From the NCBI GenBank assembly GCA_937922785.1, contig CALAJQ010000019.1:1-64000 (forward strand): a stretch of 64,000 bases of DNA. Direction: 5' to 3'. The translations under genes were made by a program, and so were the position numbers. The DNA comes from an uncultured Acidimicrobiales bacterium. GTDB taxonomy: Bacteria; Actinomycetota; Acidimicrobiia; Acidimicrobiales; SZUA-35. Below the pieces are notes generated by a model that was not told the DNA's origin, searched no databases, and was given only the letters and a program-made list of their open reading frames with translations. How positions within the stretch are numbered: the stretch's first letter is position 1; each line of letters begins with the position of its first letter. Shown piece after piece: positions 23,895-63,930 of the stretch.

Positions 23895-24178
23895 TTATCT
23901 TGTTCCAATGTGGCCCAAAGCCCATGGGCGTGGAGTCGGTGCACGTCGCGTTCGGCTTCACTTCGGGTTCCGTTGGAAACAACAGCCCGGCCTTTTTCGT
24001 GCACGTCGAGCATCAGTTTGGTGGCTTCTTCGACGCTATATCCAAAGAGTTTTTGTAGCACGTAGGTGACATAGGGCATCAGATTGATCGGGTCGTTCCA
24101 GACCAGCACGATGTAGGGACGTTCTTCGGACACGTCGCTGTCGGTGAGTTCGACCTCAATGGGCGCAGTACTACTCAT
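23891..24178 (-). CDS. clpS: Clp protease adaptor ClpS
   Basis: N-end-rule adaptor that delivers substrates to ClpC/ClpA, 95 residues. The signature [16 protein letters not shown] with the downstream [17 protein letters not shown] region matches the family, including the acidic pocket residues (NDP). The ATG at 24178 overlaps the ctaA stop, and it is chosen over a start 20 codons upstream that would lie inside ctaA. The gene order ctaA-clpS-DUF2017 is one transcription unit. Confidence 0.95.
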
Positions 24179-25041
24179 CGGTATCGGATCCACGGTGATC
24201 GGTAGAAAGCCAGGACGATCCAAACAACTCCACACCAAACCATAACTGACCCGACGACATGGGCCAGCACGAGCGAGGGTGGAACTCCGACCGCGTACTG
24301 CCAGTAGCCGATCCCACCCTGGATCACGATTAAGGCAAGAACGAGACGCAACCGAAACAGCCGTGGGTCATCGGCCGGCATGCTCCTATGAGCGGCAATC
24401 GCAAAGACCACGAACCCTGCAAGCAGCAGCCACACGGTCACACTGTGGATTCGAGCGATCGTTTGAATGTCGAAGTCAAGTCGGTCGGCTCGGCTATCAC
24501 CGCCGTTGGGGCCAGTTCCGGTAACCAAAGTTCCTGTGGTCAGCACTGCCGTGGCCCAGATTCCAAGTCCAACACTCGCCTTCCGGAGGATTAACGGAGC
24601 ATCCGCGGCACCGATGGGATTGGAGGTTCTTGACCACATCACAAGAAGAATCCAGATGAGGACCATCGACAACAAGAAATGTGACGTCACCGAGAAGGGA
24701 TTCAGATCGGTTCGAACAGTCACCGCTCCAAGCAGGATTTGTCCAACCGTGCCAGCTAGGACGCCCCATGCCCAAGGCCGCAAACTCTTCCACTGTGACT
24801 GGAGGCGATACGTCGCCCAGACCAACAAGATTGCAACAAGACCAATAAGACCGCTGTAAAGGCGGTTTCCAAACTCGATCCAAGTGTGAAAGGCCCACGC
24901 TGGGATCAGCTCGTCGCTCGAGCACTTGGGCCAATCTTCACAACCGAGGCCCGAATCAGTCAGTCGGACCAATGCACCGGTGAAGACAATGGTCGTGAAG
25001 GCAAAAATCGAGGCAGCGAGCACCTTGCGATATTGACTCAT
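24175..25041 (-). CDS. ctaA: Heme A synthase (COX15/CtaA)
   Basis: Oxidises heme O to heme A for cytochrome oxidase. About 288 residues and eight transmembrane helices. The extracytoplasmic cysteine pair is Cys34 and Cys40 ([10 protein letters not shown]). The first helix-2 motif reads EFGNR (56-60) where Bacillus CtaA has ExxHR, so the His ligand of that motif is Asn here; later His residues ([22 protein letters not shown]) are present. ctaB lies divergently 48 bp away. The start is uncertain among ATG codons at 25041 and 25047 and a GTG at 25074. Confidence 0.92.
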
Positions 25042-25089
25042 CCTCATTCTGATGAGCGTAGAGCGGGCGATCACCTTTAGGCTGATTGG

Positions 25090-25995
25090 GTGACTACCGC
25101 TGTTGCCACGCGATCTCGCGTCTGGGCTTTCGTCGCTTTAACCAAGCCGCGGATAATTGAACTTCTGTTAGTGAGCACTGTGCCCACTATGTTTTTGGCT
25201 CAACAGGGCCTTCCTTCGGTGTCTCTGATGGTGCTGACTGTGATCGGTGGCACCTTGTCTGCAGGCGGTGCAAACGCCTTCAACATGTACATCGATCGAG
25301 ACATCGACGCAGTCATGAACCGAACTAAGGGTCGGCCCCTGGTTACGGGCGAGGTCGAGCCGAATGAGGCACTGATGTTTGCTGCCGCTATCGAAGCGGT
25401 TTCGTTCGTTTGGCTTTGGCAGTTTGTGAATCTGCTTTCGGCGATTTTGGCAGTCGGTGCTTGTGCCTTTTATGTATTCATCTACACAATGTGGCTCAAG
25501 CGGACTTCAACTCAGAACATCGTAATTGGCGGAGCTGCTGGAGCTGCTCCGGTCTTGATTGGCTGGTCCGCGGTCACAAACAGCATCTCGGTAGAAGCGG
25601 TGCTGTTGTTCGCAGTGGTCTTCTTCTGGACCCCACCCCATTTCTGGGCCTTGGCCATTCGATACCAAGAAGACTACGCAGCTGCCAACGTTCCAATGAT
25701 GCCAGTGGTCGAAGGCCACCAGAAGACAGCCATGCAGATGTTGGTCTATTCGGTGATTGTCTGGATTATCACCTTGGTTCTTTGGCCAATCAGCAATTTG
25801 GGGTTCATATATCTGGGCACTGCAATTGTCGTTGGCGCATTGTTCACTGGTGGAGCGGTTCAGATCCTTCGCGAGACTGACCCCGAGCGTCAGTCAAAGC
25901 TCGGTATTCGTTACTTCGGATTCTCTATTACCCATCTGACACTGCTGTTTGCTGCAGTGGCAGTTGACCAGCTGGTTGGCTGGGGCGTCGGGTGA
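25090..25995 (+). CDS. ctaB: Protoheme IX farnesyltransferase (heme O synthase)
   Basis: Adds the farnesyl group to heme B, giving heme O, the substrate of CtaA. A UbiA-family membrane enzyme of 301 residues with about nine helices. It has the prenyl-diphosphate motif NMYIDRDIDAVMNRTKGRP and the second conserved loop YTMWLKRTSTQNIVIGGAAGA followed by WTPPHFWALAI. The start is GTG. Divergent from ctaA and followed by the oxidase genes. Confidence 0.96.
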   Translation: MTTAVATRSRVWAFVALTKPRIIELLLVSTVPTMFLAQQGLPSVSLMVLTVIGGTLSAGGANAFNMYIDRDIDAVMNRTKGRPLVTGEVEPNEALMFAAAIEAVSFVWLWQFVNLLSAILAVGACAFYVFIYTMWLKRTSTQNIVIGGAAGAAPVLIGWSAVTNSISVEAVLLFAVVFFWTPPHFWALAIRYQEDYAAANVPMMPVVEGHQKTAMQMLVYSVIVWIITLVLWPISNLGFIYLGTAIVVGALFTGGAVQILRETDPERQSKLGIRYFGFSITHLTLLFAAVAVDQLVGWGVG

Positions 25996-26114: not shown

Positions 26115-27809
26115 ATGGCACAGAACGAAATGACCCCAACCGACGCACCGTCTGATCAGTCTGTCCTAGAGCGGATTTTGGGCACGTCTGACCACAAGAC
26201 CATTGGTCGTATGTGGATGCTGGCCGGCGCTGCGGTTCTGGCTGCTGGCATGGCAGTTTCGCTGGTGGCAGCCATCGAGCAGATTTCACTAGCCTCGTTC
26301 TCGATCGCCGCTGACGGCGATGAGCTTGTTCAAATCTGGTCTTCCGGCCGAACATTTACGCTAATCGGTGGAGTTGTTGCCCTACTGGTTGGTTTGGCCA
26401 CCTATTTGGTGCCATTGCAGGTCGGTTCGTCGGCAATCGCATTCGGTCGTGGAGCAAACGCTGCCTTCTGGATTTGGTTCATCTCGGTAGATCTCCTCGT
26501 AGTCAGCTACCTCTTGAACGGTGGCCCTGGCGGCGGACGCCGCGACTTTGTTGCTTTGTGGGCGTTAAGCCTTGGTGGTGCGTTGATCGGAATCATGTGG
26601 GCGCTCATTTGTGTGGCCACAACTGTTCTTGCTGCTCGGGCACCGGGCATGACGCTCGAACGAGCACCGATATCTGCCTGGGCCTTTGGGGTCTGGGCTC
26701 TGCTTGGCCTAGTTTCTCTGCCCATTTTGCTGGGTCAGCTTGTTCTTTCTTATATCGATGTTCGCTACGAGTACCTGAGTAGCTACACGCGTTTGGCCTC
26801 GGCCATCGATTCAATATCGCTGGCCCCGGCCATCTACTGGCTAGCAATTCCGGCAATGGGAATCGCCGCTGAAGTTGTTGGCGTTCACTCAGGCCAGCCG
26901 ATCCGATTCCACAAGTCGGTCATGGCTGGAATCGGCGCACTTTCGATCATGGCCTTCGGTGGAGACTTCCTAGGTTTTGCTGGAATAGCCCGCACGTTTG
27001 ATGCAGAAACAGAACTTGGCTTCAAGGCCATTGCGTTTGACAATGGCCTTCTTGTTGTTGCCCTGTTTGGTGCCCTTTTGCCGTTGCTTGTGATCATGGG
27101 CCTCATCTCTGACAGTCTTCGATCAGGGCGAGCATCGATGAACCCGTCAATGCTGGGCGCACTTGGCGGAGGGGCCTTGGTGCTTTTGGGAGCAATCGCC
27201 GCATTGCTGGGCACCATCGAGCCAATCGTTGGATTCTTTGCCGACCTGGCGAACCGCACCCCTGATGTGCCCGACTTCCTCCAGCTGAACGGAACTAGCT
27301 TCAACGCTGGGGTCACCGCCCTTGTTATTGGTGGAGCTGTTCTTGCATCTATCGGGGCCGCTCATCACTGGGCCCACAAGATTTGGGGCCGCTACCTCAC
27401 CGACGGTCTTGGCAACTTGTCGATCACGGCGGTCCTGCTTGGTTCTCTAGCCACTGCTATTGGAAACATTGGCGCCGGGACCCGATCTCAACCAGCTCTT
27501 CCACAAATCGACTCCTCCCCGCTGTCTGGCGTGGAACTCTTCAACGCAATCACTGCATTGGGCGTTGCCCTGGCTCTGTTGGGTGTAGCTATCTTTGCCC
27601 TCGACCTACTTAAGACCGCCACTTCCAAGCGTGATGACACTGAGCGCTGGTCCGGTCACACCCTGGAATGGTCAACCGATTCTCCACCGCCGCTCGCAAA
27701 CTTCGCCGTTGCGCCTTCTGTGGGCTCCGCTTTCCCGCTACTAGACCTGGCCGGTGACGAATCAGATGACGGTGAATCGGCTGACGCACGAGAAGAGGTT
27801 GACGCATGA
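26115..27809 (+). CDS. CtaD paralogue lacking all heme and copper ligands
   Basis: A 564-residue polytopic protein aligning to cytochrome oxidase subunit I. It keeps TSDHKTIGRMW near the N-terminus, RAPGMTLERAPISAWAF (176-192) and TLEWSTDSPPPLANF, matching VDHKKIGIMY, RAPGMTWMRMPVFVWM and TLEWSIQSPTPEHNF in the CtaD encoded 3 kb downstream. At the ligand positions the His of FTMHG is Ile84, the CuB His of FGHPEVY is Ala238 (its Tyr is kept as Tyr242), the HH pair aligns to Gly-Phe near 288, and HFH is V401-T402-A403. No metal centre can form by the usual scheme. The reading frame is intact and overlaps the next gene by 4 bp. Function unknown; a scaffold or assembly role is inference. Confidence 0.8.
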   Translation: MAQNEMTPTDAPSDQSVLERILGTSDHKTIGRMWMLAGAAVLAAGMAVSLVAAIEQISLASFSIAADGDELVQIWSSGRTFTLIGGVVALLVGLATYLVPLQVGSSAIAFGRGANAAFWIWFISVDLLVVSYLLNGGPGGGRRDFVALWALSLGGALIGIMWALICVATTVLAARAPGMTLERAPISAWAFGVWALLGLVSLPILLGQLVLSYIDVRYEYLSSYTRLASAIDSISLAPAIYWLAIPAMGIAAEVVGVHSGQPIRFHKSVMAGIGALSIMAFGGDFLGFAGIARTFDAETELGFKAIAFDNGLLVVALFGALLPLLVIMGLISDSLRSGRASMNPSMLGALGGGALVLLGAIAALLGTIEPIVGFFADLANRTPDVPDFLQLNGTSFNAGVTALVIGGAVLASIGAAHHWAHKIWGRYLTDGLGNLSITAVLLGSLATAIGNIGAGTRSQPALPQIDSSPLSGVELFNAITALGVALALLGVAIFALDLLKTATSKRDDTERWSGHTLEWSTDSPPPLANFAVAPSVGSAFPLLDLAGDESDDGESADAREEVDA

Positions 27810-28447
27810 CCGATGTCTCCACTTTTGATCCAATTCCACTAGACGTCCGGCCAGCGGAACCCGCTCGGCCACGACTTCTTGTAACTGCCACTGCGTTGGC
27901 GTCGGTGGCAACCATCATGATGTTTGCCGGGTTGCTAGGTGCCTACATCAGCCAACGGGCAGACGTCATCGCTACTGGCGAAACTTGGCTACCAGGCGGG
28001 GTTGTGATTCCGCTCACCCAGCCAAACATGATGATGATCACGATGGTTTTCTCAGTTGCCATCATGACCTGGGCGCTTTCTTCGATCCGTAACGACGATC
28101 GCCCAAACACCTACATCGCGCTTGGTCTTTGTGTGATCTTCGGGGTTGCCTACATTAGCCAGACTGCGTTCTTGCTGAACCTTATGGAAATGCCTCTGTC
28201 AGTCGATTTCGCCGCTGGCGACACCATCGACGCCTGGCAGCGAGCGCCTCTCTTCTACTCGATCATTGGGGGCCATGTCATTATGGTCATCGCCGCCATG
28301 ATCTATCTCGTTGTAATGGGTTTCCGCACGTTAGGCGGCCAATACAACGCAAAAGATGTTGAGGGCCTCTACGCAGCGGCTCTGTTCTGGTACGTGACCG
28401 TCGGTGTGTATCTCGTAATTTGGTACACCATCTACATCACCAAGTAG
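27806..28447 (+). CDS. CtaE-like (cytochrome oxidase subunit III superfamily) membrane protein
   Basis: A 213-residue protein with five to six transmembrane helices. Features shared with heme-copper oxidase subunit III include MMFAGLLGAYISQRA at the first helix and the final ALFWYVTVGVYLVIWYTIYI, which parallels the WHFVDVVWVLIFTIVYL end of the true CtaE near 33 kb. The ATG overlaps the stop of the ligand-less CtaD paralogue (ATGA). The pair therefore looks like a subunit I-III duplication that diverged together. Confidence 0.78.
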   Translation: MTDVSTFDPIPLDVRPAEPARPRLLVTATALASVATIMMFAGLLGAYISQRADVIATGETWLPGGVVIPLTQPNMMMITMVFSVAIMTWALSSIRNDDRPNTYIALGLCVIFGVAYISQTAFLLNLMEMPLSVDFAAGDTIDAWQRAPLFYSIIGGHVIMVIAAMIYLVVMGFRTLGGQYNAKDVEGLYAAALFWYVTVGVYLVIWYTIYITK

Positions 28448-28453
28448 GTCGAA

Positions 28454-29248
28454 ATGTTTCCTTGGGGTTCAAAATATTTGCTAGCCGCCTCTGGCGCTTC
28501 CTGGCTTGCCGCCATGGCCTATGGGCTTGTTACCGGCGGAGGCCTAGTTGGCGTCCTCTCGTTTGGGTACAAAGGCGGCGTTGGCGAGCACTTCGGTTAC
28601 GCCATCTTGATGTTCCTGATGGTCTCGACCTTCATGCTGGCCATGGTTCTGTTCTTCACCCGAGATGGTGATGCTGAGGCAATGGCTGCCCTTGTTGGCG
28701 CCGAATCAGCGCCACAAGTTAGCCCTGCTACCGGACCTGCCTATTGGGGTCCAATCGCAGCTTTTGGAGCTGCGGCAATGATGCTGGGCTTGGCGGTGTC
28801 GATCATCTTCTTCTACCTGGGCCTGGCAACGTTCTTTGTAATCCTGATCCTCTGGACAGTTGAGACCTGGGCCGACCGAGTAACCGCCGACACCGACGTG
28901 AACCGCGTCATCCGAAACCGAACCCTCGGCCCAATCGAAGTACCGATGATCGCAACTATCGGCATCGCCGCTGTAGTTATCGCCATGTCTCGTATGTTTC
29001 TGGCAACCTCACACACCGGCGCCGTAGTCATCGGATCGATCTTTACGGTTCTGATCTTCGGTGGCGCTGTGGCGCTAAGCCGTACAGATGTCTCAAGAAA
29101 GACCTGGACTGCAGTAATGGCCATTGGCGCAGTGTTGGTACTGGGCGGCGGTGTGGTCGGAGCAGCCATGGGCGAGCGGGAGATACATCACTCCGAGCAT
29201 CACGGCGACGACCACGGCGAAGATCACAGTGAAGACGAGGGCGAATAG
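28454..29248 (+). CDS. Membrane protein with acidic, His-rich tail
   Basis: A 264-residue protein with about six transmembrane helices and no recognised family. The C-terminus, after the last helix, is a charged tail rich in His, Asp and Glu (HHSEHHGDDHGEDHSEDE), a typical metal-binding composition. It starts 6 bp after the CtaE-like gene and ends 58 bp before ctaC, so it is probably the third member of the paralogue operon. Copper handling for the oxidase is possible but unproven. Confidence 0.7.
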   Translation: MFPWGSKYLLAASGASWLAAMAYGLVTGGGLVGVLSFGYKGGVGEHFGYAILMFLMVSTFMLAMVLFFTRDGDAEAMAALVGAESAPQVSPATGPAYWGPIAAFGAAAMMLGLAVSIIFFYLGLATFFVILILWTVETWADRVTADTDVNRVIRNRTLGPIEVPMIATIGIAAVVIAMSRMFLATSHTGAVVIGSIFTVLIFGGAVALSRTDVSRKTWTAVMAIGAVLVLGGGVVGAAMGEREIHHSEHHGDDHGEDHSEDEGE

Positions 29249-29306: not shown

Positions 29307-30530
29307 ATGAAAAAGCTATTAACAGGCGCCCCCGTAGCGCTGGCTCTCCTGCTTGCAGGTTGTGGAGATGACTCCAAGCCACTTAACACTTACGAGCCCC
29401 AAGGTCCTAAGGCTGAGGCGATCGATCGCATCATTCAGCCAATCTTCCTCCTGGCGTTTGTCATTGGCTTTTTGGTCTTTGGCGTCGTCGCTTGGTTGAT
29501 CTTTAACAACCGGGTTGACCCCGAGACCTATGACCCGCTGGACTTCCCAGATCAGGTCCATGGCAACGCCAAACTTGAATGGGGCTGGACCTTGGTTCCT
29601 GCGGTAATCCTGGCCATCATCTCTGCTTGGTCAGTTCCTGCCATTTGGGACTTGGAAGAAAAGAACGAGGCCGGCGAGCTCGACGTGCTGGTAATTGGCC
29701 AGCAGTGGTGGTGGGAATACCGCTACGACGTCAACGGGAACGGCTTTTTCCTAGATGTTGATGGCGACGGCGTAGCCGGCGATGAGGACGACCTTCAGTG
29801 GCCACTTGAGCTTCTGCTAGACCCCGAAGACGTCGTCACAGCTAACCAGCTGGTTATCCCAGCAGGCCAACAGGTAGATCTCACCCTGACCTCACGTGAC
29901 GTCATCCACTCATATTGGATCCCGCGACTCAACGGCAAGCGCGACACAGTGCCCGGTCGTTTCCACACGTGGAGCGTTGCGGCAAATGAGGCAGGCGAGT
30001 TCACCGGTTGGTGCACAGAGTTCTGTGGTATTTCTCACGCCCGCATGCGCATGAGCGCAATTGCGCTCGACAAGCCTGATTTCGACGCATGGCTAGCCAA
30101 CCAGTCTGAAGCTGCGGCGATTCCCGAAGAAGGATCGATCGCATGGGAAGGCCGTGAGGTTTTCCAGGCTCAATGCACCCAATGCCACAACATCACCGAA
30201 GATCTTGACGATCCCGCCAACGTGGTCGCAGCTCTGACTGCCAAAGCTGCGCCGAACCTCACCCACTTTGCAACTCGCGCTGCCTTCGCTGGCAACATCT
30301 ACAGCCAATGGGTCGGGATCGACCCTGACGCTGCACAAATGGATGTGAGCACCTACTTGGACCTTGGAGCCAACTACCGCTTCAATGAGCCTGAACTCCG
30401 CCGCTGGATCCGAAACGCACCAGGTCGAAAAGACATGGCGCCAGAGGATGAGCGCGGCATGACAGCATTCCCGCAACTTTCTGACGAACAGCTTGACCAG
30501 CTGATCGCCTACCTAGAGACACTCGACTAG
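29307..30530 (+). CDS. ctaC: Cytochrome c oxidase subunit II with fused cytochrome c domain
   Basis: Accepts electrons from cytochrome c at the CuA centre. A 407-residue lipoprotein-type precursor (lipobox LLLAGC, Cys19) with two transmembrane helices, and the cupredoxin domain has CuA ligands Cys236, Cys240, His244 and Met247 (CTEFCGISHARM) and the upstream His in DVIHSYWIP. A C-terminal heme c domain is attached (CTQCH, 290-294), as in caa3 oxidases. The ATG at 29307 was chosen for the signal peptide; an upstream in-frame extension lies inside the previous gene. An insert of Asp/Gly (DVDGDGVAGDEDD) precedes the CuA sheet. Confidence 0.96.
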   Translation: MKKLLTGAPVALALLLAGCGDDSKPLNTYEPQGPKAEAIDRIIQPIFLLAFVIGFLVFGVVAWLIFNNRVDPETYDPLDFPDQVHGNAKLEWGWTLVPAVILAIISAWSVPAIWDLEEKNEAGELDVLVIGQQWWWEYRYDVNGNGFFLDVDGDGVAGDEDDLQWPLELLLDPEDVVTANQLVIPAGQQVDLTLTSRDVIHSYWIPRLNGKRDTVPGRFHTWSVAANEAGEFTGWCTEFCGISHARMRMSAIALDKPDFDAWLANQSEAAAIPEEGSIAWEGREVFQAQCTQCHNITEDLDDPANVVAALTAKAAPNLTHFATRAAFAGNIYSQWVGIDPDAAQMDVSTYLDLGANYRFNEPELRRWIRNAPGRKDMAPEDERGMTAFPQLSDEQLDQLIAYLETLD

Positions 30531-30542
30531 GAGCCTGACCCG

Positions 30543-32486
30543 ATGACACTCGCACTCCCACCAGCGGAACAAAAATTTGACGGGTCACCGCTTGGCGCTC
30601 TCGTCAGACCGCGGACAAGCACAGGCCTGAAGGGCTGGCTCACCACAGTTGACCACAAGAAGATTGGAATCATGTACGGCGCTGCCGCCATGTTCTTCCT
30701 TCTCATCGGTGGCGCAGCAGCGTTGCTGATCCGAATTCAGCTAGCTGCCCCGAACCAAACGTTGCTTGGCGGCGATGCCTACAACCGTGTGTTCACGATG
30801 CACGGAACAGTCATGGTGTTTTTGGTAGTGATGCCAATTGGTGCCGCCTTCGCTAACTACATGATGCCAATCCAGATCGGCGCACGGGATGTGGCCTTCC
30901 CTCGAATCAACGCCTTCAGTTTCTGGGTCTTCTTGGCTGGCGGACTGATGCTGAACACCAGCTGGTTCCTCGGCGGAGGCGCCAACGGTGGCTGGTTCAA
31001 CTACGCCCCCAACAACGGCATTGCCTTCAGCCCAAGTGCCGGTATTGACTTCTGGAACCTCGGCCTGTTCATTGCTGGTATCGGCTCGCTAAGTGGCGCA
31101 GTGAACCTGATTACAACAGTGTTGAACATGCGAGCGCCGGGCATGACCTGGATGCGTATGCCGGTATTTGTGTGGATGACACTAGTTACCCAGTTCCTTC
31201 TGCTCTTCGCAATCCCAGTGCTTACAGTCGCCCAGCTGCTTCTGATGTTTGACCGCAACTTCGGGGCCAACTTCTTCAACGTGTCCCAGGGTGCAGATCC
31301 TCTGCTTTGGCAGCACTTGTTCTGGGTGTTCGGTCACCCCGAGGTGTACTTGATGATCTTGCCGGCCTTCGGAATTGTCTCTGAAGTCATCCCAGCGTTC
31401 GCTCGCAAGCCGATCTTCGGTTACCCCTTCATGGTGGCCTCCGGTGCGATCATCGGCTTCATGGGTTGGGGCGTCTGGGCTCACCACATGTTTGTCAGTG
31501 GCATCGGCCCCCTATCGGTTTCGGCTTTCTCGGTAGCAACAATGTTCATTGCGGTTCCGACCGGAGTGAAAATCTTGAACTGGGTCGCCACTTTGTGGGG
31601 CGGCAAACTGCTGATGACTACCGCTATGTGGTTCTCAGTTGGCCTGATCGTTCAGTTCACCGTTGGTGGGCTTTCCGGTGTGGCCCACGCGGTGGCCGCA
31701 TCTGACACCCAGCAAACTGACACCTACTTCATCGTGGCTCACTTCCACTACGTCTTGTTCGGTGGAGCGCTCTTTGGCTTCTATGCCGGTCTCTACTTCT
31801 GGTGGCCAAAGGCGTTCGGCTACCTGCTGGATGAGAAGTGGGGAAAGTGGAACTTCTGGTCAATGGTTGTTGGTTTCAACTTGACCTTCGGCCCAATGCA
31901 CATCCTTGGTCTTCAAGGCATGCCTCGTCGTATGCAGACCTACGACGACGCAATGGGTTTCAGCAACTGGAACTTGGTGGCAACCATCGGATCACTGATC
32001 TTGGGCGTCGGCACATTGCTTATTCTTGTAAACGCAATGATCAGTCGCCGTCGTTGGATCGCTGACGGCCGACCGAACCCCGGCCCTGATCCATGGGATG
32101 CACGCACCCTCGAGTGGTCAATCCAGTCGCCAACTCCTGAGCACAACTTTGACTACACGCCACAGGTCACCGAGCTTGATGACTTCTGGCACCGCAAGTA
32201 CGCCATGGATGAGAACCACAACTTAGTGAAGATTGCTGACGCTAAGGATCTAGCCCAGCCTGGAAACGGCGAGGGAGTTCACCTTCCTGCTCCATCCTTC
32301 TGGCCAATTCTTCTTGCTTTCAGCATGCCAATCATTGGTTATGGGGTCATGTTCAGTCTGTGGCTGACAATTCCTGGCGGCATCTTGATGATGGCTTCGC
32401 TTTACGGTTGGGCCCTTGAGCCAGCCGATGATCTAGACCCCAAAATCGATGATCACGATGGTCATGGAGAGCTTGTCAATGTCTGA
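30543..32486 (+). CDS. ctaD: Cytochrome c oxidase subunit I
   Basis: Catalytic heme-copper subunit reducing O2 and pumping protons, 647 residues. Heme a ligands are His87 (FTMHG) and His402. Heme a3 is bound by His400 (HFHY). CuB is held by His265, His314 and His315, with the cross-linked Tyr269 (GHPEVY). After the 12 core helices and the TLEWSIQSPTPEHNF segment, a C-terminal extension has two more helices (SFWPILLAFSMPIIGYG). It sits between ctaC and ctaE, overlapping ctaE by 8 bp. Confidence 0.98.
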   Translation: MTLALPPAEQKFDGSPLGALVRPRTSTGLKGWLTTVDHKKIGIMYGAAAMFFLLIGGAAALLIRIQLAAPNQTLLGGDAYNRVFTMHGTVMVFLVVMPIGAAFANYMMPIQIGARDVAFPRINAFSFWVFLAGGLMLNTSWFLGGGANGGWFNYAPNNGIAFSPSAGIDFWNLGLFIAGIGSLSGAVNLITTVLNMRAPGMTWMRMPVFVWMTLVTQFLLLFAIPVLTVAQLLLMFDRNFGANFFNVSQGADPLLWQHLFWVFGHPEVYLMILPAFGIVSEVIPAFARKPIFGYPFMVASGAIIGFMGWGVWAHHMFVSGIGPLSVSAFSVATMFIAVPTGVKILNWVATLWGGKLLMTTAMWFSVGLIVQFTVGGLSGVAHAVAASDTQQTDTYFIVAHFHYVLFGGALFGFYAGLYFWWPKAFGYLLDEKWGKWNFWSMVVGFNLTFGPMHILGLQGMPRRMQTYDDAMGFSNWNLVATIGSLILGVGTLLILVNAMISRRRWIADGRPNPGPDPWDARTLEWSIQSPTPEHNFDYTPQVTELDDFWHRKYAMDENHNLVKIADAKDLAQPGNGEGVHLPAPSFWPILLAFSMPIIGYGVMFSLWLTIPGGILMMASLYGWALEPADDLDPKIDDHDGHGELVNV

Positions 32487-33231
32487 GGTAGCAACCGCCA
32501 CTGAGGCGCACGACGACCACGATCACGGGCACGAGGAGCACCACTCGAGCCTGGGACTATCCAACATGAAGTTGGCGATGTGGCTGTTCTTGGGCTCTGA
32601 ATGTCTGCTGTTTACAGCTCTGATTTCCAGCTATTTGTTGTCAAAGACAAGGTTCATCGCGGAACTGACCGCTGGCAACCCAGACGTCATTCGCGGGACC
32701 CTTGGAGACAATGTTCCTGCCGACGTTGAAAACGGCGATCGCCTGGCCAACTCGGGCGATCTACTAGAGCCGTTCTCGGAGATGTTTGCCGAGGGTACGG
32801 TCGAGCCGCTTTGGGATATCCCCTTCACTTCGTTCTCGTCCTTTGTTCTTTTGATGAGTTCGCTTTCTATGGTTCTTGCTCACTCAGCAGTTTCCAAGGG
32901 CGACTACAAGAACACTCGTCTTTGGCTTGGAACCACGGCCCTTCTGGGTTCAGTGTTTATTGGTGGCCAGGTCTATGAGTTCACAACCTTCTTCCGTGAG
33001 GGTCTTACCTACCAGGGCACGCTTTTCGGCTCCGCCTTCTACACCCTGACTGGTTTCCACGGCGTTCACGTAACCGGCGGCATCTTGATGTTGGGCTCGT
33101 TGTTGTTCTTGAGCTTCCGAGGAAAGCTCCAGAAGGATCGAGCCGAAACTGTCGAGCTTGTTGGTCTCTATTGGCACTTTGTTGACGTGGTCTGGGTCTT
33201 GATCTTTACCATCGTCTATCTGATCCCGTAA
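32479..33231 (+). CDS. ctaE: Cytochrome c oxidase subunit III
   Basis: A 250-residue structural subunit of the oxidase. A His/Asp-rich N-terminus (HDDHDHGHEEHH) precedes seven expected helices, with WLFLGSECLLFTALISSYLL, TGFHGVHVTGGILML and the final LYWHFVDVVWVLIF typical of subunit III. The ATG at 32479 has a GGAGA ribosome site eight bases upstream inside the end of ctaD. An extracytoplasmic-looking insert near residues 50-100 is less conserved. Confidence 0.96.
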   Translation: MSEVATATEAHDDHDHGHEEHHSSLGLSNMKLAMWLFLGSECLLFTALISSYLLSKTRFIAELTAGNPDVIRGTLGDNVPADVENGDRLANSGDLLEPFSEMFAEGTVEPLWDIPFTSFSSFVLLMSSLSMVLAHSAVSKGDYKNTRLWLGTTALLGSVFIGGQVYEFTTFFREGLTYQGTLFGSAFYTLTGFHGVHVTGGILMLGSLLFLSFRGKLQKDRAETVELVGLYWHFVDVVWVLIFTIVYLIP

Positions 33232-33243
33232 GCAGGTACTGAA

Positions 33244-33570
33244 ATGGCTAATACCGAAACCGCACACGACGTCCACGATGAAGAGCATGTCTCGGAGCGT
33301 CAGTACTGGGTGGTCTTTGTAGTCCTTGCAATCATCACTGCAGTTGAGGTGGCCTGGAGCTACCTAGGGCTTGAGGGCGCAGCACTAGTGCTGCCGTTGA
33401 TCGCAATGATGGTCGTCAAGTTCTTGTTCGTCGTTGGCATCTTCATGCATCTGTACTTCGATCTCAAGATTCTTAATGGCCGCTGGTTTACCTGGTCGTT
33501 CGGCACCGGCCTAATCTTGGCGATATTAGTGTTCTTGGCTGTCATAGCGACTTTCGAATTCCAGATCTAG
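33244..33570 (+). CDS. ctaF: Cytochrome c oxidase subunit IV (prokaryotic COX4/CyoD type)
   Basis: A small accessory subunit of 108 residues with three transmembrane helices. The motif VKFLFVVGIFMHLYFD is characteristic of the prokaryotic COX4 family. A charged, His-containing N-terminus (HDVHDEEHVSER) precedes the first helix. It lies 12 bp after ctaE and is clearly cotranscribed with the oxidase. Confidence 0.92.
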   Translation: MANTETAHDVHDEEHVSERQYWVVFVVLAIITAVEVAWSYLGLEGAALVLPLIAMMVVKFLFVVGIFMHLYFDLKILNGRWFTWSFGTGLILAILVFLAVIATFEFQI

Positions 33571-33598: not shown

Positions 33599-34477
33599 AT
33601 GGTGGCGGCACTAGTAGCGGCGCTCATACCTTGGGTGGCTCACCCTGAGGTTTGGGTTCTTATCGGCGGCGGTCTAGCCGTTGGCATCTATGCCTCACGT
33701 GTCATTCAGCCCAAAGCAATCGAGGCTGGCTATGAGGCCCTCACGTCCAGGCAGATCTTCTGGTTCGCCGCTGGGCTTCTGGGGCTTTGGGTGGCCTCTG
33801 ACTGGCCAGTGCATGACATAGCAGAGAACTACTTGTACTCAGTCCACATGGGTCAGCATCTGGTGATCTCGCTATTGATACCGGCTGCATTTGTGATGGC
33901 CACGCCCCGATGGTTACTTGAGCTAGTTGTGCAGCCCAGCTCTCGGGCCTGGCGCTGGCTGCGCAAAGGCTCAAAACCGTTGTTTGCAGGAATTGTCTTT
34001 AACATGGTGACGGCCCTGTTGCACCTGCCTCAGGTGGTTCAGCTGGCAGCCGATAGCGGCGTTGCTCACTACCTCATGCACCTCGTTGTATTTGGGTCCG
34101 GGATCTTGCTTTGGATGCCTGTCATCGGGCCCATCCCTGAGTGGCGCCTCCAGCCGCTGGGTCAGTGCATCTACCTTTTCTGCAACAGCCTGCTACCCAC
34201 GATTCCAGGCGGATGGTTAGTTTTCGCCACCGGCGTTGTTTACCCGCACTATGACTCTGCTGAACGCCTATGGGGAATCAGCCTGCTAACTGACCAGCAA
34301 GCGGCTGGAGCAATCATGAAGCTGGCTGGTGGCCTATTCATCTGGGTTGTGATCTTTGTGATATTTGGCCGATGGGCATCGAGAGATCAGCTCGAACAAC
34401 AAACCGCCCGAGCTGAGCGTGACCGGGTTCGTTATGCGGCGTTCAAAGAGGCTCAGCTTTCTGAGAACCAAGGTTGA
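33599..34477 (+). CDS. ctaG: Cytochrome oxidase assembly protein, caa3_CtaG type
   Basis: A 292-residue membrane protein with about seven helices. Motifs include VHMGQHLVISLLIPA, HLPQVVQLAADSG followed by HYLMHLVVFGSGILLWMPV, both in CtaG-type proteins (the caa3_CtaG family, distinct from Cox11). It is needed for assembly of the copper centre in Bacillus. The final position in the cta cluster supports an assembly role. Confidence 0.9.
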   Translation: MVAALVAALIPWVAHPEVWVLIGGGLAVGIYASRVIQPKAIEAGYEALTSRQIFWFAAGLLGLWVASDWPVHDIAENYLYSVHMGQHLVISLLIPAAFVMATPRWLLELVVQPSSRAWRWLRKGSKPLFAGIVFNMVTALLHLPQVVQLAADSGVAHYLMHLVVFGSGILLWMPVIGPIPEWRLQPLGQCIYLFCNSLLPTIPGGWLVFATGVVYPHYDSAERLWGISLLTDQQAAGAIMKLAGGLFIWVVIFVIFGRWASRDQLEQQTARAERDRVRYAAFKEAQLSENQG

Positions 34478-62637: not shown

Positions 62638-63054
62638 ATGGTCACAACCGATGCCAATCCGCCGCTCCCGGAATTTCGTGACGACTATGTGCTTGTCGAA
62701 GTCGACGCCGACTACCTAGCAAAGGCTGTTAAGCCCAAGCAGTTTATTCATATTGATCAGTCCGAGTGCATTGCTTGTGAGGGTTGTGTCGATATTTGCC
62801 CGTGGAAGTGCATTCATATGCAGCCAACTGAGGCTATTTCGGAAGCCTTTGGTGTTGCAAAGCCAGGCGATGACCCCAACGATGCATTTATATTCACAAT
62901 CGATGACGATGTCTGCACCCGCTGTGCGCTTTGTGTTGATCGCTGCCCTACCGGGGTGATCATCCTCGGCAAGATCTCCGATGCCCCCGCAACCGGCGAC
63001 GCACACCAAAGAACTCAGTCACACGGTTACGGCTACGGGATGCGCCTTGCGTAA
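62638..63054 (+). CDS. Di-cluster ferredoxin
   Basis: A 138-residue electron carrier with two CxxCxxCxxxCP motifs (CIACEGCVDICP and CTRCALCVDRCP) for two [4Fe-4S] clusters, separated by a 40-residue insert. Cytoplasmic. It is placed between the membrane protein and cytochrome b6 genes, suggesting a link to the complex. Typical of low-potential donors. Confidence 0.88.
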   Translation: MVTTDANPPLPEFRDDYVLVEVDADYLAKAVKPKQFIHIDQSECIACEGCVDICPWKCIHMQPTEAISEAFGVAKPGDDPNDAFIFTIDDDVCTRCALCVDRCPTGVIILGKISDAPATGDAHQRTQSHGYGYGMRLA

Positions 63055-63138
63055 CCTGAACATCTAGCTCTTAAAGTCTGTTCTCTTAATCTCTCAAATA
63101 CTCGCAAGAATCTCTCTAGTACTCGCAAGGCAGAATCA

Positions 63139-63930
63139 ATGGCAAAGTCAATTTCAGACAAGCCGACACTGGCTGAAAAAGCAGGTGACGCAGTCTCCAA
63201 TGTGATGAACTCAACTCAGGGTTCACAGACTTGGAACTCGATCTTCCGTCCTGGTTCGGTTTTCCGAAAGGGCTATACCGATAGCCCACGTAACCGAAGC
63301 TACGTGATTATGAACTCGGTGCTTTACCACCTTCACCCGGTGAAAGTTAAGCGACACGCAGTCAAGGTCAGCTACACGCTCTGTCTTGGTGGCCTCAGCT
63401 TCTTCTTGTTCATTTTGCTAACGATCACTGGCATCTTCTTGATGTTCTTCTATCGACCAACAGCATCTGCAGCCTGGGAGGACATCTCGTCACTTCAGAC
63501 TTCGGTGAGCTTTGGACTACTGGTGAGAAATATGCACAGATGGGGGGCCCACTTGATGGTGCTCTCGGTGTTCTTGCATATGGCCCGAGTCTTCTATCAT
63601 GGCGCGTACAAGCCGCCACGAGAGTTCAACTGGGTTATCGGCGTCATGCTTCTCCAGTTCACACTTTTGCTTTCGTTCACCGGCTACCTGTTGCCTTGGG
63701 ATCAGCTCGCACTTTGGGCTGTGACAGTGGGAACAAACATGATGGGCTACACGCCGGTCTTTGGAACCCAGGTCCGGTTCGTGCTTCTTGGCGGCACCGT
63801 TATTGGAACCGATACTTTGTTGCGTTGGTACGTGCTCCACGTGCTGATGTTGCCCTTTGTTGTAGTGATCTTTATGGCCATCCACTTCTGGCGGGTTCGT
63901 AAAGATGGCGGAATCTCCGGACCGCTGTAG
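63139..63930 (+). CDS. Cytochrome b6-type quinol-oxidising subunit
   Basis: A 263-residue protein with four helices. Heme ligands are His133 and His147 (helix B), and His234 and His249 (helix D). The 15-residue step in helix D and the GISGPL terminus are those of cytochrome b6, not bc1 cytochrome b. Cys82 in CLGG matches the cysteine that holds heme c_n in b6. The next gene (subunit IV position) begins 30 bp later. Confidence 0.9.
   Translation: MAKSISDKPTLAEKAGDAVSNVMNSTQGSQTWNSIFRPGSVFRKGYTDSPRNRSYVIMNSVLYHLHPVKVKRHAVKVSYTLCLGGLSFFLFILLTITGIFLMFFYRPTASAAWEDISSLQTSVSFGLLVRNMHRWGAHLMVLSVFLHMARVFYHGAYKPPREFNWVIGVMLLQFTLLLSFTGYLLPWDQLALWAVTVGTNMMGYTPVFGTQVRFVLLGGTVIGTDTLLRWYVLHVLMLPFVVVIFMAIHFWRVRKDGGISGPL

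Follow-up and report, generated by a model that had tools for sequence, protein, structure and literature searches.

Between ctaB and a complete aa3 cytochrome c oxidase operon bearing all its ligands, the window (the whole 64,000-nucleotide stretch of DNA analysed here, from an uncultured Acidimicrobiales bacterium) holds a three-gene unit, psD-psE-X3 (Table 1). Its first product, psD, is, by alignment and predicted structure, a subunit I fold without any heme or copper ligand at the known sites. The cofactor sites have been lost to graded extents among relatives, a series that is most simply derived from an ancestor bearing heme and a cupredoxin. The initial annotation, made from the letters of the DNA and their open reading frames, drew attention to psD but missed both the complete module of subunit I, subunit III and X3 and the graded loss in relatives.

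Table 1. Genes of the psD unit and of the surrounding aa3 cluster in the window
Feature	Coordinates	Strand	Product and basis
ctaA-like	24175..25074	-	heme A synthase, divergent; sequence and family knowledge
ctaB	25090..25995	+	heme O synthase, conserved upstream neighbour; sequence and family knowledge
psD	26115..27809	+	subunit I (CtaD/COX1)-fold protein, 564 aa; sequence, profile match, predicted structure
psE	27806..28447	+	subunit III (CtaE/COX3)-like membrane protein, 213 aa
X3	28454..29248	+	membrane protein, 264 aa, His-rich C-terminal tail
ctaC	29307..30530	+	subunit II; CuA motif GWCTEFCGISHARM, fused cytochrome c (CTQCH)
true ctaD	30543..32486	+	subunit I, all ligands present: H87, H265, H314, H315, H400, H402
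ctaE	32479..33231	+	true oxidase subunit III; sequence, profile match
small subunit IV (COX4_pro)	33244..33570	+	profile match
ctaG (Caa3_CtaG)	33599..34477	+	assembly factor; profile match

Fold and ligand sites of psD

The psD frame is open over its full length and matches PF00115 (88.7 bits, E 5e-25; the true CtaD of the window scores 515 bits), as expected of the full-length 564-residue subunit I homologue that had been recognized beside the real CtaD. The two proteins are 25% identical, and psD reaches 124 bits with the NCBIfam CtaD model, whose cut-off is 671 bits. An AlphaFold2 model computed with 43 sequences (pLDDT 90.5, pTM 0.92) has the 12-helix COX1 fold, and its best PDB matches are the mycobacterial and corynebacterial aa3 subunits I (TM about 0.78–0.80), which bears out the fold suggested for it.

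Ligand positions were assigned by alignment with the window CtaD and with relatives, using R. sphaeroides numbering as the reference. The low-spin heme ligands H102 and H421 are replaced by G78 and A402, the high-spin heme ligand H419 by V400, and the CuB ligands H284, H333 and H334 by A237, L286 and G287; the bis-His low-spin site, the high-spin ligand and the three CuB histidines by which an aa3 subunit I is recognized are therefore all missing. E286 is A239. The D-channel residue D132 is A107 and the K-channel residue K362 is I327, and these two are replaced throughout the psD sequences examined; the true CtaD of the window keeps D116 and K343. The Tyr at the Y288 position is kept (Y241), and the RAPGMT and TLEWS blocks are retained, just as first described. 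The replacement of all six histidines had also been seen correctly, except that the residue given as Ile84 should be Gly78 and that the other positions were off by about one.

Have the histidines been lost, or merely moved? Since the model places all seven histidines of psD on the cytoplasmic side or close to it, and none in the half where the hemes sit, the ligands have been lost rather than shifted, and relocated ligand histidines are ruled out. Despite its fold, psD does not pass the tests that define a heme-copper oxygen reductase, and the name oxidase should therefore not be applied to it. Judged by the known ligand sites, its sequence is that of a cofactor-free protein, which should not reduce O2 by the oxidase mechanism. 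Position 397 (window numbering) is at the outer end of TM10 and precedes the site of the lost heme a3 ligand by three residues; here, 19 of 27 psD of the window's family have His, and the window has Asn.

Compared with aa3 subunit I (CtaD/CoxA, A-family, of the actinobacterial bcc-aa3 type), psD is alike in fold, in length, in its adjacent subunit III homologue and in the cytoplasmic motifs DHK..GR, VPLQVG, RAPGM and TLEW..SPP..NF, but it is without the heme a, heme a3 and CuB ligands and the D132/K362 equivalents. NO reductases and other branches of the heme-copper superfamily also have the fold of subunit I around a changed metal site in the active centre. Their heme ligands are kept, and the CuB/FeB site still holds a metal, whereas no psD relative has an intact metal site. 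An analogy may be drawn with the CydAA' bd-type oxidases, for which Murali et al. in 2021 (cited in PMC12342949) reportedly proposed that the CydA' paralogue pairs with the standard core subunit; here too a paralogous core subunit stands beside a standard one, although the bd-type superfamily is unrelated.

psE, X3 and the neighbouring aa3 genes

The coupling of psD to a CtaE-like gene and a His-tailed membrane protein, already pointed out in the initial annotation, holds for psE and X3. psE overlaps psD by 4 bp (27806-27809) and matches PF00510 (COX3) at 36.9 bits, above the curated cut-off of 23.8 (E 4.7e-9). For X3, the window copy has no Pfam match, and its structure model, which is moderately confident, has no PDB match by fold; CtaF chains appear in its PDB search at E about 1–6. 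The N-terminal part of X3 weakly resembles Cyt_c_ox_IV (the actinobacterial subunit IV) in some relatives. PF12270 gives weak matches in 5 of 37 relatives (best E 1.3e-4) and none in the window copy, and the X3 of locus L078 gives E 2.9e-5, just under the cut-off.

The C-terminal ~110 aa of X3 form a 3-TM module that is often a cupredoxin anchor elsewhere in the phylum. It matches the anchor of the membrane-bound cupredoxin found after ctaG in aa3 operons of other Actinomycetota, where this segment is a separate gene beside an intact CtaD and is often followed by one or two cupredoxin domains. In the X3 of Acidimicrobiales, by contrast, the anchor module is fused to a further N-terminal membrane part and lies within the psD unit, and the copper domain is absent in most lineages. 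Loci L205–L224 (e.g., L221:4722-5708 and L211:6054-7088) have the 3-TM anchored cupredoxin after ctaG, sometimes with two tandem cupredoxin domains. In the window X3, the cupredoxin is absent, the type-1 Cu ligands H, C, H and M are not present, and the His-rich tail (GEREIHHSEHH...) sits where the deep forms described below have the cupredoxin linker. Among relatives, the length and His content of this tail vary freely; in one family it is ~140 aa long, without type-1 ligands or recognition by Pfam, and is read as a degenerate cupredoxin.

Only two PF00115 genes, psD and the true ctaD, are present in the genome, which also has one bd oxidase, one cytochrome b of a bc-type complex and SURF1; SCO1 has no match there. 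A scan of promoters and terminators gave nothing useful. The starts of ctaC and ctaE were chosen at MKKLL and MSEVATATE, respectively, and the genes that we take to be ctaB and ctaA were named from their sequence and from knowledge of these families. Residues 574–626 of the true CtaD correspond to the C-terminal half of a Cyt_c_ox_IV domain; similar partial matches are found in long CtaD-sized frames of other Actinomycetota.

Distribution, selection and graded cofactor loss

The searches yielded about 119 distinct psD sequences, each from the window's order, Acidimicrobiales. Every one of the 40 relatives searched gave matches. In the loci inspected, nearly every genome sampled from the window's family has a psD distinct from ctaD, as do most of the order's remaining families; some families have other CtaD types and no psD. 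Searches of the class and phylum found no full-length psD/X3 units outside the order, and the high-scoring outside matches that were fetched proved to be ordinary CtaD. A scan of named genomes yielded 80 loci, which by their records belong to Acidimicrobiales, Acidimicrobiia, other Actinomycetota or unclassified bacteria and include Candidatus Microthrix, Candidatus Poriferisocius and Aquihabitans sp. G128. The order ctaB-psD-psE-X3-ctaC-ctaD-ctaE-ctaF-ctaG, part of which the initial annotation had suggested looking for in other Acidimicrobiia, is conserved across the Acidimicrobiales on all contigs of sufficient length; exceptions are rare (in L023 and L121, ctaB is on the opposite strand). 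Since the open psD frame and the gene order recur in more than 100 loci, the frame is beyond chance.

The dN/dS of psD in close pairs is 0.06–0.24, and psE and X3 are mostly in that range. These values were taken from other lineages because the nearest relative of the window psD is only 49% identical; one pair from the window's own family gives 0.10. The argument that an intact frame implies a selected unit is thereby strengthened. A decaying, functionless pseudogene remnant would fit the loss of the cofactor sites and an evolution faster than that of CtaD, but it is hardly credible given frames intact in so many loci and the conserved gene order, and it is contradicted by the dN/dS values.

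In the tree, psD is monophyletic with full support (100), apart from CtaD. The pairwise distances of psD and ctaD in 88 loci are correlated (Mantel r 0.83, reached by 0 of 999 permutations), with psD evolving at ~3.2 times the rate of ctaD. This vertical tracking of CtaD and the purifying selection together mark the unit as old, inherited mainly by vertical descent and under constraint. With the sides of the membrane assigned by helix prediction and by the established topology of subunit I, conservation of psD is higher in the cytoplasmic half by 0.44 bits, which 8 of 481 circular shifts reach; the difference in true CtaD is −0.13 bits, i.e., even. The half that serves heme, CuB and electron entry in an oxidase has been released, and the cytoplasmic loops and the TLEW..SPP..NF tail are still conserved. 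psD displays which part of subunit I, the cytoplasmic half, survives once catalysis is not selected.

The loss of ligands is graded. None of the six ligand histidines is present in 86 of 110 distinct psD, no psD among the relatives has an intact CuB site, and the low-spin pair H102/H421 is kept in 15 of about 119 relatives. A deep psD group keeps H102 and H421, with H419 too in some members, and has Arg at H284 (in an RPE or RPD motif) in all but L046, which has Leu. The X3 of this group ends in a cupredoxin with type-1 Cu ligands, a motif that is intact in 14 relatives. In the first set, three heme histidines were found in five psD, and these were the very five that had the type-1 Cu motif. 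Nine further deep loci, picked by similarity to the deep profile, all have the cupredoxin motif and H102/H421, with H419 replaced by Gln or Asn in four; in L062, the low-spin pair is kept and the cupredoxin is absent. The statistics of heme and cupredoxin co-loss carry no significance because only about two independent events underlie them. The psD of L062 (L062:6091-7653) keeps no ligands beyond the low-spin pair; its CuB position is occupied by Arg, and its shortened C-terminus is without the TLEW motif. Several deep relatives have a gene for a TlpA-like thioredoxin between X3 and ctaC (L050:9591-10229, L052:7555-8100 and L062:9226-9795).

Gln at former active-site positions is common in intermediate lineages (it replaces H333 in 59, H284 in 41 and E286 in 52 of 110 psD), and the window's family has small or apolar residues in its place. 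Derived lineages, the window's among them, have neither the heme ligands nor the copper domain. Since type-1 Cu forms occur in both branches of the deepest psD split, the sequences are most simply explained by a psD ancestor that would have had a low-spin heme and a cupredoxin but no CuB.

Possible roles of the psD unit

What, then, would such a unit do beside a working oxidase? The explanation that we prefer, and to which we give about an even chance, is that psD-psE-X3 is an ancient second oxidase turned pseudo-oxidase and kept as a structural or assembly partner of aa3. It would have started as a second complex of the heme-copper oxidase type, made of subunit I, subunit III and an X3 combining a subunit-IV-like part with a 3-TM anchor for a cupredoxin. 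Loss of CuB and of the proton channels would have come first, that of the hemes and copper protein later, and the window lineage would be the cofactor-free end, encoded in one cluster with the true aa3 and retained as its partner, with psD held through its conserved cytoplasmic face. The three proteins would form a complex; its partner would be the aa3 oxidase or the bc-aa3 assembly, and its service would be either structural or in assembly. On the other hand, conservation of the cytoplasmic face could reflect folding or membrane insertion rather than docking, the fast evolution of psD fits a peripheral role, and aa3 works without psD in other groups.

Among the functions proposed in the initial annotation, a scaffold fits best. 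Copper handling is unsupported for the window form, since it has no copper ligand set and its His tail occupies the position of the cupredoxin linker. A regulator is without evidence: a copper or heme sensor might be imagined from the His tail of X3, but domain searches found no sensor or DNA-binding domain, no ligand set is conserved and the tail itself is unconserved, and we consider this role very improbable. A dedicated aa3 assembly factor or chaperone, holding CtaC/CtaD/CtaE intermediates or aiding heme A or copper insertion and absent from the mature enzyme, is another possible role. The neighbours of the unit are ctaB, ctaA and ctaG, the deep forms carry a cupredoxin and several of them the TlpA-like thioredoxin, and copper delivery to CuA is unexplained because of the missing SCO1 match in the window genome. 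PCuAC, a cupredoxin-like protein with a His/Met tail, is a known CuA chaperone and offers a precedent (PMC9145763). However, the genome already has SURF1 and CtaG, the cupredoxin is gone in most lineages, the window's included, and the His tail of X3 varies in length and His content, so that a dedicated assembly factor seems unlikely to us. It would be rather improbable, too, that the unit is a separate complex with a non-oxidase function of its own, independent of aa3, such as passage of ions or small molecules, or binding of lipid or quinone in the former heme pocket. The set of I, III and X3 is complete, and the Gln that recurs where active-site residues once stood suggests that many lineages have a shaped polar pocket; yet the window's family has small or apolar residues where others have Gln, the D- and K-channel residues are gone throughout, and the unit is always embedded in the aa3 operon.

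For the deep relatives (e.g., L050–L053 and L226–L234), we tentatively entertain a further possibility. They may form a redox-active, CuB-less complex, in which type-1 Cu on X3 would feed a bis-His heme in psD; the CuB site is occupied by the conserved Arg, and a subset retains the high-spin heme ligand. Such a complex would be a membrane electron-transfer or peroxidase-like unit, not an oxidase, and the window form would be its cofactor-free end, kept in the aa3 machinery through much of the order.

In line with the initial annotation, which knew of no description of such a unit, searches of open-access journal literature found no published description of psD-psE-X3, and an open review of oxidase assembly proteins has no mention of Ilumatobacter or of names beginning with Acidimicrobi. 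If a pseudo-oxidase kept as a partner of aa3 is the true explanation, the unit would offer a rare example of a complete series, from the core of a heme-copper oxidase to a pseudoenzyme without cofactors, kept across most of an order and beside the working enzyme. It may also represent a set of subunits, not described before, of the aa3 or bc-aa3 respiratory machinery of Acidimicrobiales. As a warning, automatic annotation can count psD genes as oxidases.

At the end of the window (62638-63930), a 4Fe-4S ferredoxin-like gene lies directly upstream of a split cytochrome b of the PetB/QcrB N-terminal type (263 aa); for a bc complex, this seemed an unusual layout.
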